Below are positions 55,639 to 64,000 of a DNA stretch of 64,000 bases, one piece after another (position 1 is the stretch's first letter; every line of letters begins with the position of its first letter). The notes below the pieces were generated by a model. It was not told where the DNA came from and did no database searches. It saw only the letters and a list, made by a program, of their open reading frames with translations. The position numbers and the translations under genes are program-made. Origin of the DNA: Medicago truncatula (lineage: Eukaryota > Streptophyta > Magnoliopsida > Fabales > Fabaceae); assembly GCF_003473485.1 (NCBI RefSeq), contig NC_053048.1, positions 39,862,755 to 39,926,754 on the forward strand. Reading direction: 5' to 3'.

Positions 55639-55930
55639 TAAAAGAAAAGTTTATGGGGATCAAATGAATGGTTTGTTTGTGAACAAACTGAAAAGAGGAG
55701 AGGAAGATGAATTCAAAATTTTATCGACAGGAGCCGTGTTACACAACAGAACACATGAACCCGATGACTTGGATTCCATGCATTGAGTCACCAAATCGAT
55801 TAAAATAAGTTATCGAAAATTACAATATTCTAAAAATCCACTACAAACACATTTTTCAACACTAAGCTAACTATAGCCGCCACCGTAGTTGAAAAACCTA
55901 CTTCACTCACTTATCTCTCCGACAACCACA

Positions 55931-58900
55931 ATGGATTTCACTCCTCCGCCAATCGAAGACGGTTACGCGGCGGAGAAGCTTTTCAACACCGGTTTCTCTT
56001 ACACCTACGATGACCTCATCTTCCTCCCTCACTACATCGACTTCGCTGCTGATGAAGTCGACCTCTCCTCCCGTCTCAGCCGCAATATCCCCCTTTCAAC
56101 TCCCTTCGTCGCTTCTCCTATGGACACCGTCTCCGAATCCTCCATGGCTTCTGCCATGGCTGCACTTGGTGGAATCGCTGTTATTCATCCTAACAACACT
56201 CCTTCACGTCAGGCCGCTATCGTCCGGACTGCTAAGTCCCGCCGTGTGCCTATCCTCTCTGAACCGGTTTTCGTTTCTCCTTCCGCTGTAATTGATTCTG
56301 AAGATTATTTTTATGCTTCACCTTTTATTTTAGTAACAGATTCTGGTAATTCTACTGGGAAATTTCTCGGTTTTGTTTCAAAGACTAACTGGTCGAATCG
56401 AAATGACAAGGGCGTCAGAGTTTCCCATTATATGGAGGCTCCACCAGGTTCTCTACCGTGGAACTCTGACCTTGCGGAAATTGAAGAGGAAATGAATAAG
56501 AGAAATGGAAATATTGTTGCTTTGGTGAAGGATGAAGAGGTGGTGGATTTGGTGACAAAAGAGGAGGTTGAGAGGGTCAGAGGCTATCCGAAGTTGGTGA
56601 CCGGAGGATCGGTTGGGGCTGATGGAGAGTGGATGGTGGGGGCGGCGATTGGGACGAGGGAACAAGATAAGGAGAGGTTAGAGCATTTGGTGAAAGCTGG
56701 TGTGAATGCTGTGGTTTTGGATAGTTCTCAAGGGAATTCTATTTATCAATTGGAGATGATTAAGTATGTGAAGAAGGTTTATCCTGAATTGGATGTTATT
56801 GGCGGGAATGTTGTGACTATGTATCAAGCTGAGAATTTGATTCAAGCTGGTGTTGATGGGTTGAGAGTTGGTATGGGATCTGGTTCTATATGCACTACCC
56901 AGGAAGTTTGTGCGGTTGGGCGTGGTCAGGTATATAGTCTTGTCTTTGTTGTCTTATAAGATCAAAGTTTGAACAGTTTCTTGCATCTGGCTTTGGATTG
57001 TTGTTTTAGGTGTGTGTTTTCAATTGATAAAGCCTTGATTGTGACCATGTTTGGATAAAACTTAGATGAGAACTTATCATATAAGTGCTTATGTATAACA
57101 TAACCCAGTTATGCATGCAAATGTTTGGACCAAATTGATATGCATAACAGGGCCAAATTGACATGCAACCTAGATGTCATATGTTATTTTCATAAGTTGT
57201 CCCAAACAATCTCACAAATGTTGATGCCAGCAGATAAGGTAAAATATGCCAGTCCAAACAAGCCGTATGTGTTATTTCGAGATTTCACTTAAGTATAGAA
57301 TAGAATTGAGAGAATGTTTTGCATTGCAATTGTGGTTGTGGCAGCTACATCATGGTAGTTGCAAACTATTGCAGTCACGATGCAGTTGCTAAGATCTCCA
57401 AAACTGTAATATTGTGGCTAAAATGTGGTTATGACTGCATATAGAGTTAAATTCTTACCAATGATCCTTTGTTGCTACAATAAGCCATGTGGCTTGTGTG
57501 GCATACCCTGACCTTGGAGTGGAGCAATCTCTTCTTTCTATAATGATTTTCTCACTTCTATAACAGAAATTTTTGAAGTTATTACTTTTAACATTTCATG
57601 TTCTCGCTAACGAATTCCAGATATTGCTCAAGGCCCTGATTCTTAATACCGAGTCTGTGTTTGACAGGGAACTGCTGTTTACAAGGTCTCATCCATTGCT
57701 TATAAAAGTGGAGTTCCTGTGATTGCTGATGGTGGCATCTCAAACTCTGGTCATATTGTAAAGGCTTTATCGTTGGGAGCATCGACTGTTATGATGGGAA
57801 GCTTCTTAGCTGGTAGTCTTGAGGCTCCTGGGGCTTATGTATATCAGGTACCAAAACCTTATGAAATCTTGTGAATTGTGGTAGCCTTTTGAAGCTTGTG
57901 CTGTGTGTGGATGAAAGTGTTGTACTGAAAACCTTTTTAAAAATAGATGATTAAATTCTTACGGAGGTTTATTTGGTGTGAATATGGAAACAACTATACT
58001 ATGATAAATTTTTTACACTGCTTACTCTTCCTTTGGTGTTTTCCTTGTTTCCTGTCATTTATTCATAAATACACTTGTAACATGCATAGCTGTTTTTTTT
58101 TTTCTTCACCAGAATGGCCAACGTGTCAAAAAGTATAGAGGAATGGGTTCCCTTGAAGCTATGACTCAAGGCAGTGATCAAAGGTACCTTGGTGATACAG
58201 CAAAGCTTAAAATTGCCCAAGGGGTCGTTGGAGCCGTTAAAGATAAGGGTTCTGTGTTGAAGTTCATTCCATATACCATGCAAGCAGTAAGGCAAGGTTT
58301 TCAAGATATTGGTGCCAACTCTCTGCAGTCTGCACATGACCTTCTTAGATCGAGGGTGTTAAGGCTAGAGGTATGGTTGACTGAGTCTTGTTATTTATTT
58401 CTTGCTTTGGTTATTAGCATAATCTATAATTGTAGCTGTTTCGTTTGCACAATTAAAATGGTTGATCTTTTTTGCATCCATAAGTATTGCCCGTGGAAAA
58501 GTTAGGAAACTAATAATAGGATAATGTAACTCTAAAATTATAAAAGCTCTGTGTTGTGTGCCATTTCATTCTTTAAACAAGAAAACATGAAAAAGGTAAA
58601 ATATAAGAGAAATTGCACTCGCCTCCCATGAGAATAATGTCACATATCTTCTATTTTGTAAAAGACACTGACCTGTCATCAATTACAGTCACCTACTATC
58701 TATTTTGTAAAAAAGACAAAAATTTAGTGGTGTGTGTGCTTTAGGGGAGGTTAATGCAATTTCTCCAATAAATAAAAGTGGTGAGTGTGTTTGTTTAAAA
58801 ATAAAAGTGACGTCTGTGTCATTTACGCATAACTGAGGGTAGTGCCTTTTTTCCTAAAATATATTACAGTGATATGTGAATTGCTTTTTAACAAGATTTT

Positions 58901-60764: not shown

Positions 60765-62035
60765 AAAATGATCTAATTTAGGTGTTAGTTTAGGCATGTT
60801 TGATGAGTTGTTTTACAAATTATTGGTAAAAAAGCTTCAATTATGTGCCTAAATGCCATTTATGCTTTGCATGCCTTACTTTATCCTTTTTGTGCAGGAA
60901 AATACAAGCAAGGAGCAAGAATTGCCAAAGTTCACAAGAAAGTCGCTATTAGCGAGATTCTCGCTATTAGCGAAAATGGCACAGGGAGTTTCGCCATCAG
61001 CGAAGCTGGGGGCGAAGTCATAAGAAGGACTTCAAGAAACTTGCCATTAGCGAAAAACTCACAGGGAGTTTCGCTATTAGCGAAGTTGGAAGCGAACTTC
61101 ATGAAAGTCAAGTGGATAAGGGAAATTTCCCACATTTCGCTAATAGCGAAATAGTTAGCTATTAGCGAAATTCTGCAGAAGTGGCCCATATAAATAGTTT
61201 TCTCTTCTTCTTCCAATTATTCTATTACATTTTTATTCATATTTTTCTGGTTTTAGAGAGAGACTAGGGCTTTTCTAGAGAGAGAAACACAAAGCAAGGT
61301 AGTTAGGAGTAGATTCAAGCCAAGATTTGTTGAGACATCATGGATTCTTCATCCTTTGCAAAGCTATCATAGACATATGTAGCTACATCTACTCTTGTAG
61401 TTTTGAGGTATTCAAACAAGCTATTATGTAATCTTTTGATCATTTAATATATGGTTCTAGCTATTTATTCAATATTGTTGTTATTCTTGCTTTTATTGTT
61501 TATTGAGATTCAAAATGATATGGACACATACTTTTGAATCTAGAAATAGAATAACAATCTATCTTAAGTTATCACTATAGACATGAATGTTAATATTTGA
61601 TAATCACTTTTAATATAGGACTTAATGCTTTTGGATAATTTAATCGGTTGGGAAATCGTCGATTAAACTACCCAATCGACTTTGTGATCGTTTAAATGTT
61701 TGAGAAATCGATGTTTAAACGACCCCTTAGAAATAACGTTATCATTTGGACACGAATGATATTGTCGAGTGATTATGATAATATAGTTTAAAAAGCTAGA
61801 ATCCGTTAATCGATCGAGAGATTGCAGCTGTTACGCTTGGTTGATGTCTCTGACCGCAAGCGGAATAACCCTATCTCTTCTCGTTTTACTTTTATGTCGA
61901 TTAGGAAAATAGTTTTACACAAACAAACAATTTATACCCAAACACTTAACGTGACAAATATTGTGAAAATACGCATGAAATACGCAACTCCATGTGGACA
62001 CGATCCTATTATACTTACGTGTGAATAGTTTTATG
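60765..62035 (+). mobile_element. Probable LTR-type retroelement remnant with palindromic cluster
   Basis: A non-coding block contains ATGCCATTTATGCTTTGCAT, seven TTCGCTATTAGCGAA-like palindromes (60950-61170), a leader-like AGAGAGAGACTAGGGCTTTT, and near its right end CCATGTGGACACGATCCTAT followed by TACGTGTGAATAG. These are phrases I associate with the ends of plant gypsy-type LTRs. No gag or pol is present. It may be a solo LTR, but its ends are not defined. Confidence 0.4.
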
Positions 62036-62315
62036 AGATGGAAAAATCCTTCATCAACGTGACACCTCACTTTGGCGAAAATTATACTCACCTCTCTTAT
62101 CACTCACATTTCTATTTATTAAATAAACACTAACCTCCCTTATATTTTAAAATAAATAAATAAACATCACACTTCATTAAAAAAAAACACATCAAACTTA
62201 TGAAAATAAATTACGTGTGCCTCTTAGAATAACATATTTTGACAAGTTTAAACGTGACTCAGGTGAACAAAAATAAAGAAACAAATTAAGAAAAGAAAAA
62301 AAATAAGTTTCACGT

Positions 62316-63030
62316 CTAAAACTTCGAATTTTTTTTTTCTGACCCTTTTGTCCAAAAAAAATACAAGTCTGACCCCCTTTGAAAAAAAATTCTCAAAATG
62401 ACCCACTTTTGATTTTTTTTTTGTCCTTTTGTGCGTTCCCGCCATTTGAGACGGCGGGACTGGCCGCCGGTCCAACACGTGTCACGATCTGACAGGGCAG
62501 CTTTTTTTTTTTTTTTTTTGGTCATTCCCGCCATTTGAAATGGCGGGACCGATTTTTTTATTTTTTATTTTCGTTTTTTGCTTTTTTTAATTTATTTGAG
62601 AAAAAATTTCAATTTTGCACCCAGGGGGAATCGAACCAGGCGCATATGGGAATCAAATGTACATTGGCTTAGTGGTAACACAGAATGACAATGACTCATA
62701 TGCGCCTGGTTCGATTCCCCCTGGGTGCAAAATTGAAATTTTTTCTCAAATAAATTAAATAAAGCAAAAAACGAAAAAAAAAAAAAAAAATTGGTCCCGC
62801 CATTTCAAATGGCGGGAATGACAAAAAAAAACTGCCCTGTCACGATGTGACACGTGTCAGACCGGCGGCCAGTCCCGCCATTTCAAACGGCGGGAACGCA
62901 CAAAAGGACAAAAAAAAAAAAATCAAAAGTGGGTCATTTTGGGAATTTTTTTTTAAAGGGGGTCAGATCTAAAATTTTTTTGGCCAAAAGGGTCAGAAAA
63001 AAAAATAAAAATTCTAGCTTAGGTCTAGTA
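62316..63030. repeat. 715-bp imperfect palindrome with GC-rich inner palindromes
   Basis: The two halves are inverse copies over most of their length. Matching blocks are CTGACCCTTTTGTCCAAAAA / TTTTTTTGGCCAAAAGGGTCAG, CTGACCCCCTTT / AAAGGGGGTCAG, GGCCGCCGGTC / GACCGGCGGCC, and TTTTGCACCCAGGGGGAATC / GATTCCCCCTGGGTGCAAAA. CCCGCCATTT-(G/C)A-(A/G)A(T/C)GGCGGG units occur four times (62440-62460, 62528-62548, 62796-62816, 62874-62894). The unpaired centre is about 62652-62692. Confidence 0.88.
62665..62718 (+). promoter_or_regulatory. tRNA-like A box and B box
   Basis: TGGCTTAGTGG (62665-62675) fits the Pol III A box and GGTTCGATTCC (62708-62718) is a perfect B box, 32 bases apart as in tRNA genes, with a T6 run at 62740-62745. 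The surrounding bases do not fold into a tRNA (acceptor and T stems fail), so this is a tRNA-derived relic or internal promoter, not a tRNA gene. Confidence 0.55.
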
Positions 63031-63714
63031 GGTCCAATATGGTAAAAATTGAGTTCTTTCAAAATATAGTGAGCCCTACAAGTAATTAATAGCAAATAGT
63101 TTTGCATCATTTATATCTTGAAGAATATTGACATTGTCTTTGATGTGTATAGAGGCAAAGAAAACTTCATCATATGTAAACGGTGGTCCATGAGGTTGAT
63201 GATTTGTCCTAAAGTGCTCTCCTAATGCTTTCGAATTGGCCTTTGAGGACATAGACATGGAGAAAAAACACATGACTTGACATGTGCATATCTTTTAGTA
63301 TACTTCACCATCTCTTGATAACCATATAGTTTATACTGAGGGCCATTCCTAAGAATTCGGAGATTCGGTTCTGGGAGTGAAAAGAGGTCAATGATAAAAT
63401 TAAAACGTATTTTTTTTTTAAAGAGCAATGCTCTATTTATATTTTTTAAAAGATAAATACAAGGTGCCGTATATATGCGGTACACCTAAAGGTGAAAATG
63501 TGTCAAATTCATAATATATTATGTCCAAATCAAAAAGGTCTCCCATGCTAAAAAAATATAATTAAAGAAGAAAAAATGAAAAGAAAAATTGATTAAAAAA
63601 ACACGAGTCCTAAGTTAATTAAAGAAGAAAGAAGGAAAGGGAAAAGAAAAAATTAATTAAAGAAGAACATGAGTAAACAAAGAAAAAGAAAAATATTTAG
63701 ATTATGTTCCAGTA
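63031..63714. other. Intergenic DNA
   Basis: No gene recognised. A run of AATTAAAGAAGAA-type repeats occurs at about 63560-63670. Confidence 0.4.
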
Positions 63715-63715
63715 A

Positions 63716-64000
63716 TTTTCTTTTGATCCCTTCTTTCATCACGTCAGTAGAATCTGTATAAATTACGTTCTTGTAATTTCAAATTCCTTCCACTTTTGGT
63801 CCGTGTAATTTCAGATTACTTCACTTTTGGTCCCTCATTTTATGTGCCATGTATGCAGATTCTGCTGACGTGGTGAAATGAAAGACTAAAAGTGGAAGAA
63901 TTTGAAATTACAATGACATAATCCAAATCTTTTTTTTTTATAAGGACTAAAACAGAAATTCGCTAATATTACAGAGACGAAAAGAGGTATTTACCCTTTA
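63716..64000. mobile_element. Mutator-like element end, related to 32733-34614
   Basis: Phrases shared with the 1.9-kb MULE include CACTTTTGGTCCCTCA, GCAGATTCTGCTGACGTGG, AAAAGTGGAAGAATTTGAAA, AAGGACTAAAACAGAAATTC and AATATTACAGAGACGAAAAG, ending TTTACCC near the window edge. The left part (63716-63845) is an inverse, diverged arm, so this may be a small deletion derivative. The right border may lie outside the window. Confidence 0.7.

Follow-up and report, generated by a model that had tools for sequence, protein, structure and literature searches.

The window, that is, the whole stretch of 64,000 nucleotides of Medicago truncatula DNA that was analyzed, lies on contig C7 of the genome searched here (430 Mb in 42 contigs). 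Pieces of an IMP dehydrogenase gene are found at 55889-58505 (Pfam IMPDH), and the palindromic element that is the subject of this report begins about 3.8 kb downstream of the last matched frame. Beyond the element, at 63803-63913, the Rfam model of MIR5284 matches the plus strand with 104.1 bits, above its cut-off of 93, and the minus strand with 63.5 bits, below it; this near-palindromic MIR5284-like hairpin is perhaps a MITE annotated as a microRNA. A MIR2655 microRNA precursor was discarded as a candidate in the interval 61000-64000, its Rfam score of 39.9 bits being far too low against a gathering cut-off of 122. The features assigned to the element are given below, where L010, L012, L013 and L015 are four relatives treated as full-length. 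The CAA triplet, the boxes and the T run were read from the letters, the antisense B box also from the deletion alignment, and the GC palindromes were located by pattern search.

62326..63014, no strand: whole element of 689 bp, probably a non-autonomous, internally deleted Mutator-like fold-back element, from the compared family ends and the single gap
62326..62650, plus strand: probable left terminal inverted repeat (TIR), outer to inner, with a 94-97% match to one TIR of L010, L012, L013 and L015, a tree branch shared with L010_R, L012_R, L013_R and L017_L, and the inverse of the right TIR
62438..62459, plus strand: GC palindrome 1, presumably E2F-site-like
62527..62548, plus strand: GC palindrome 2, free of mismatches to the pattern
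62627..62637, minus strand: antisense B box, putative remnant of the tRNA-like unit of the left TIR
62648..62651, no strand: putative internal-deletion junction, site of the gap of 620-646 bp relative to L010, L012, L013 and L015
62651..63014, minus strand: probable right TIR, outer to inner, with one tRNA-like unit kept without its TATA
62654..62656, plus strand: CAA triplet, at -4 of the tRNA-like unit
62658..62730, plus strand: tRNA-like unit, called tRNA-His (atg) by ARAGORN at a threshold lowered to 70%
62665..62675, plus strand: A box, TGGCTTAGTGG
62708..62718, plus strand: B box, GGTTCGATTCC
62739..62744, plus strand: T6, putative Pol III terminator
62796..62817, plus strand: GC palindrome 3, free of mismatches to the pattern
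62874..62895, plus strand: GC palindrome 4

The original prediction described two near-inverse arms between 62316 and 63030. The palindrome is real: a blastn comparison with the window pairs 62330-63005 with its own inverse at 86.9% over 702 aligned positions, and the longest arm pieces are 90-97% complementary in an inverted-repeat comparison. The outer limits had been drawn slightly too wide, however, and comparison with the ends of family members places the element at 62326-63014. The matched arms are separated by 48 nt and diverge from each other by about 9-13%. Folded as RNA, the 676 nt of 62330-63005 reach -487.5 kcal/mol, against -170.1 kcal/mol (sd 8.1) for 20 shuffled sequences, which corresponds to a z of -39.

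A search of the genome with the element returned at least 139 matching pieces, with 40 of 229 candidate places scored, many of them inverted pairs whose arms are separated by about 600-700 nt. Thirty-seven stretches were taken for study, followed by 7, 3 and 18 more. The family ends in GA(A)ATTTTTTTTTTCTGACCC. In L010, L012, L013 and L015, 1314-1353 bp lie between the target duplications, and the TIRs, long as in Mutator-like elements (MULEs), measure 437-473 bp and are 85.5-91.4% identical; the remaining end pairs measured span 474 to 6381 bp. A perfect target duplication of 9-10 bp was found in 19 of the 26 end pairs tested and one with a single mismatch in two others (L030 and L035), counts that stand without a null, come from offsets picked to fit and include some A/T-rich duplications. 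The other 11 of the 37 stretches are omitted from these pairs, either with one arm found (L011, L014, L018, L022, L031, L041 and L042), with two arms (L023 and L024), with an end cut (L043) or as a repeat of L035 (L045). No acceptable duplication was found in five of the 26 pairs, namely the window copy, L020, L021, L037 and L040; the best match for the window copy is A-rich, agrees at 8 of 9 positions and lies away from the element ends, and L040 has a 7 of 9 match at its ends. The 9-10-bp duplication characteristic of MULEs is therefore a trait of the family that the window copy does not display.

Palindromic forms recur among the relatives. L034 (474 bp) and L040 (937 bp) are short copies that fold nearly completely, and L034 741-1214, L040 4595-5531 and L051 1386-2021 are each inverted over much of their length. 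A different arrangement is seen on an unplaced contig (L056, G000:C15:48000-53200), where diverged family members stand head to tail in units offset by 1948 bp and 99.4% identical; on this contig the matches listed for the A-box pattern include nine, spaced at 1.87-1.95 kb, between 48819 and 64294. These head-to-tail units are a MULE-derived tandem array.

One longer relative, L028 (1337-7735), links the family to a transposase. It is 6381 bp long, is bounded by a perfect 9-bp target duplication and has TIRs about 78% like those of the window copy. Its coding content, present as domain-bearing pieces, comprises the MULE transposase domain (PF10551, E 9.4e-18), DBD_Tnp_Mut (PF03108, E 1.5e-8) and SWIM (PF04434), with pieces of a plant mobile domain (PF10536) on the opposite strand. 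In the window arm, the match to the L028 TIRs is confined to the outer part (query positions 54-310 and 58-320 of 325), and the tRNA-like query is unmatched in L028. Because related TIRs bound this transposase-bearing element, the window element would probably have been moved in trans by a MULE transposase recognizing its TIRs. We conclude, with a probability of about 0.88, that the palindrome is a non-autonomous Mutator-like DNA transposon whose arms are its long TIRs, joined by internal loss. The fold-back DNA transposon proposed at the outset is borne out by the many relatives, the defined ends and the target duplications in most of the relatives tested.

Comparison with the full-length relatives indicates how the palindrome probably arose. 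When the window copy is aligned with L010, L012, L013 and L015 in their better orientation, a single gap of 620-646 bp appears and the arms are 92-97% identical; most of six more rearranged elements (L017, L019, L025, L029, L032 and L035) differ in gap length or have more than one gap in one orientation or both. A tree built from 22 arms places the left window arm with L010_R, L012_R, L013_R and L017_L at a support of 98/98. The right window arm groups with L010_L, L012_L and L017_R at a weak support of 88/71; L013_L is unplaced, and the tree leaves 11 of its 19 inner branches open. Since the two window arms branch with opposite ends of the full-length copies, each arm appears to derive from a different end of an element. 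The two TIRs would have been brought together by the loss of about 620-650 bp between them, which accounts for matched arms only 48 nt apart. We conclude from these comparisons that the palindrome most plausibly arose when two old TIRs came together on loss of the middle, and not as a new inverted duplication. An internally deleted MULE explains the striking palindrome simply.

Long palindromes are hard to assemble, and the original prediction had named a single-copy, misjoined inverted duplication as the case that would overturn it. The 9-13% difference between the arms and their placement in two TIR branches, one with good support, that co-occur in full-length copies make the chance of such an assembly artefact next to negligible. 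Together with the genome copies, the deletion alignment and the arm tree oppose this case, and the window palindrome can hardly be a misassembly.

The center of the element had been predicted to carry an A box, a perfect B box at tRNA spacing and a T run, and all of these are present. The two boxes start 43 nt apart, which equals tRNA spacing. The window has a single pair of this kind, and 200 Markov-1 sequences of 64 kb, searched on both strands, have none. The antisense B box expected in the left arm was likewise recovered, at 62627-62637. When the window copy is set against its relatives, the deletion is seen to have stripped TATA from the right unit and to have cut away the left unit's front half, including its A box and TATA; both B boxes are intact. 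One cassette survives in the window copy, with its TATA gone.

The unit is not recognized as a tRNA gene. ARAGORN at default settings reports no tRNA in the window or at seven related loci, the Rfam tRNA model has no match at E up to 1 in 61000-64000, and Rfam finds nothing at gathering in L012, L013 and L028. At the threshold of 70%, ARAGORN calls tRNA-His on the unit and also tRNA-Trp on the opposite strand, so that the tRNA-His call is not specific. The predicted fold of the unit is no cloverleaf, and the T-stem pairs, as read from the letters, are mismatched. In the unit alignment, covariation in the anticodon-like stem was sought by eye; the change there seemed to be C-to-T rather than compensation. 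A functional tRNA gene was therefore rejected, the cloverleaf being recognized neither by default ARAGORN nor by the Rfam tRNA model. As the predicted fold is not a cloverleaf, we take the cassette to be the relic of a promoter rather than a tRNA. No matches to the tRNA-like 25-mer and the GC palindrome were found in viral contigs.

Across the family, both TIRs carry this tRNA-gene-like, Pol III-type cassette near their inner end, reading outward. We collected 38 units in which the match to the 96-nt query spans 86 nt or more, from the first 37 stretches, with L045 excluded and the window unit included. A TATA lies 20-40 nt upstream in 36 of the 38, and 37 have a CAA no more than 10 nt upstream; an A box is present in 32, a B box of the form GRTTCRANTC in 23 (perfect in 16), and a run of T4 or more downstream in 36. 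All five occur together in 17 units. The family thus has what look like the promoter elements of a plant tRNA-type Pol III gene, and the window copy has them without TATA. The CpG of the B box has become TG in 11 of the 38 units and CA in one (two are unreadable), changes that would be expected of methylated copies. If transcribed, the cassette could yield an RNA of about 90 nt ending within the TIR. In the middle of L012, at about 1500-1560, a second A-box-like stretch, TAGCCTAGTGG, was seen by eye, with no clear B box.

The evidence for constraint on the cassette is mixed. In the near family (20 arms of 10 elements), conservation is 0.85-0.86 at the B- and A-box stretches and 0.80-0.98 across the TIR, and no excess conservation of the tRNA-like part over the rest of the TIR was found in these arms. 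A wider set of 92 units, found in the fetched loci by allowing up to 5 mismatches to the A-box 25-mer, contains TATA in 90, CAA in 88, an A box in 75, a B-like box in 66 and T5 or more in 66, with GGTTCGAYTC in only 37. Among 17 of these that are less than 85% alike, conservation peaks at 0.82-0.92 in the stretch that begins shortly before TATA and ends with the A box; between the A box and the end of the B box it is 0.77-0.82. Immediately upstream it is 0.70-0.78, and it falls to 0.4-0.6 at greater distances upstream and past the T run. The A-box seed and, for the 17 units, the demand for a B-like box inflate conservation at those stretches, the TATA stretch excepted, and the drop past the T run may reflect TIR swapping.

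These figures bear on a possible role of the cassette. The transposon lineage might have adopted a tRNA-type Pol III promoter as a permanent component of each TIR, where TFIIIC and TFIIIB, or Pol III at both ends, would shield the TIRs as a chromatin boundary or keep them open, or where short outward transcripts of about 90 nt would help the element. In such a case TATA, CAA and the boxes would persist across diverged subfamilies, as the counts in the 92 units and the profile of the 17 diverged ones suggest. The inflation caused by the seed, TIR swapping as a source of the drop, the even conservation in the near family, the TG or CA in place of CpG in 12 of 38 B boxes and the scarcity of GGTTCGAYTC speak against such a role, and we regard it as rather unlikely. 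If it were true, the loss of TATA would make the window copy a natural knock-out of one such unit.

The source of the cassette was sought in the genome. The original prediction had suggested a SINE trapped by a fold-back element, and the A and B boxes at tRNA spacing, the T run and the tRNA-His call at the lowered ARAGORN threshold would suit a SINE or tRNA pseudogene inserted at the window locus. The unit, however, sits in both TIRs of the family and reads outward with TATA and CAA in front, which is unexpected of a retroposed SINE, and no tail is visible in the aligned units. A 22-base B-box/acceptor pattern, allowed up to 2 mismatches, matched 35 times, and all 35 matches, each in a fetched locus, lie within 800 nt of outer-TIR sequence of the family, which is A/T-rich and was matched unmasked at E up to 1e-3; the independent dispersal of a SINE is not seen here. 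An inserted SINE or pseudogene is accordingly highly unlikely.

Neither a donor tRNA gene (DNA search with 40 of 111 candidates scored, the 22-mer and the A-box 25-mer) nor, in the genome pattern searches, an independent copy of the cassette was found. The A-box 25-mer has at least 105 genome matches, and the 28 newly fetched places (7 from the DNA search, 3 from the 22-mer and 18 from the A-box 25-mer) all resemble the L013 element. Outer-TIR pieces, at the same unmasked threshold, are present in 27 of the 28, the exception being L071, one of the 18 A-box places; the A-box places C3:57106265, C5:16998532, C1:30997507 and most of C15 lie outside the fetched set. The upstream TATA and CAA favor capture of a tRNA-gene-like locus together with its 5' flank over a SINE. 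Most likely, the cassette was captured in this way: it and its 5' flank would have been taken from such a locus and then multiplied with the TIRs.

The length of the window hairpin raises the matter of silencing. In maize, Mu killer contains a partial inverted duplication with TIR copies and has been proposed as a source of hairpin RNA (PMC3440606). Read-through of the 676-nt palindrome, with its z of -39, could by analogy produce a long hairpin and make the window copy a source of small RNAs, and a locus of this kind would direct siRNAs against the MULE family. The fold-back form is, however, not special, as L034 and L040 are also short fold-backs, and the alignment shows nothing but TIR sequence in the window copy, in contrast to the transposase sequence of Mu killer. 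We consider a Mu-killer-like silencing locus distinctly unlikely.

The arms also contain four CCCGCCATTTSAAAYGGCGGGA units, reported in the original prediction and found again at the same places, with none expected from 100 shuffles. Genome-wide, the 22-base GC pattern at up to 1 mismatch gives 197 forward and 187 reverse matches, near-palindromes scoring on both strands, and 0 in a reversed control. We take these palindromes to resemble E2F sites (motif WTTSSCSS). Cell-cycle enhancer motifs are described in the MuDR TIR (PMC3310237), and E2F sites have been spread in Brassicaceae by MITEs, those of MULE type included (PMC12595863). In view of these precedents, the GC palindromes may serve the expression of the element or the binding of transposase. 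The full palindrome, scored with a fixed pattern, is kept in just 17 of 46 arms, which appears to oppose a strict role.

The window object is an ordinary one, an internally deleted MULE, with one unusual content, the tRNA-type Pol III cassettes in its TIRs. To our knowledge, no DNA transposon has been reported to carry a complete tRNA-type Pol III unit in each of its TIRs, and none is announced in the titles or abstract openings returned by searches of open-licence PMC papers. Such a unit in both TIRs, in dozens of copies, would be a new TIR content; MULE TIRs are described as holding transposase-binding sites and promoters (PMC3310237). The family cassettes offer a direct test case for the use of Pol III or the binding of TFIIIC by a DNA transposon, and an inert cassette would still exemplify a promoter multiplied by a transposon.

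A comparison with known systems places the family among the MULEs. It resembles them, as well as the fold-back forms FARE of Arabidopsis and MuTAnT of Medicago truncatula, in its long TIRs, 9-bp duplications and hairpin-forming short copies, and it resembles MULEs further in the transposase of its longer relative L028. FARE is named alongside MuTAnT in the account of the latter, which describes TIRs with GGGGTTTGCTAGAACA and TA microsatellite targets (PMC4486113). The window family ends instead in GA(A)ATTTTTTTTTTCTGACCC, and membership in MuTAnT was rejected, as neither the GGGGTTTGCTAGAACA TIR nor a (TA)n target was seen when ends and flanks were read by eye; the accessible portion of the MuTAnT account makes no mention of a tRNA-like cassette (PMC4486113). 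With Mu killer, the window copy shares inverted MULE sequence with the capacity for hairpin RNA, but Mu killer has transposase sequence and silences. The GC palindromes, which resemble E2F sites, lie in TIRs, as do the cell-cycle motifs of MuDR, and E2F sites have been spread by other plant transposons; the window family differs in the low retention of the full palindrome. In descriptions of plant tRNA genes, TATA and CAA precede the A and B boxes and a T run follows, TATA being present in only 22-32% of them (PMC11700998). The family cassette has these elements in the usual order, but differs from these genes in lacking a predicted cloverleaf and a default ARAGORN or Rfam tRNA match, and in lying within the TIR of a transposon. 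Compared with tRNA-derived SINEs, it has the internal A and B boxes in common and is set apart by its upstream TATA and CAA and by the 35 pattern matches, all of them beside MULE TIRs.
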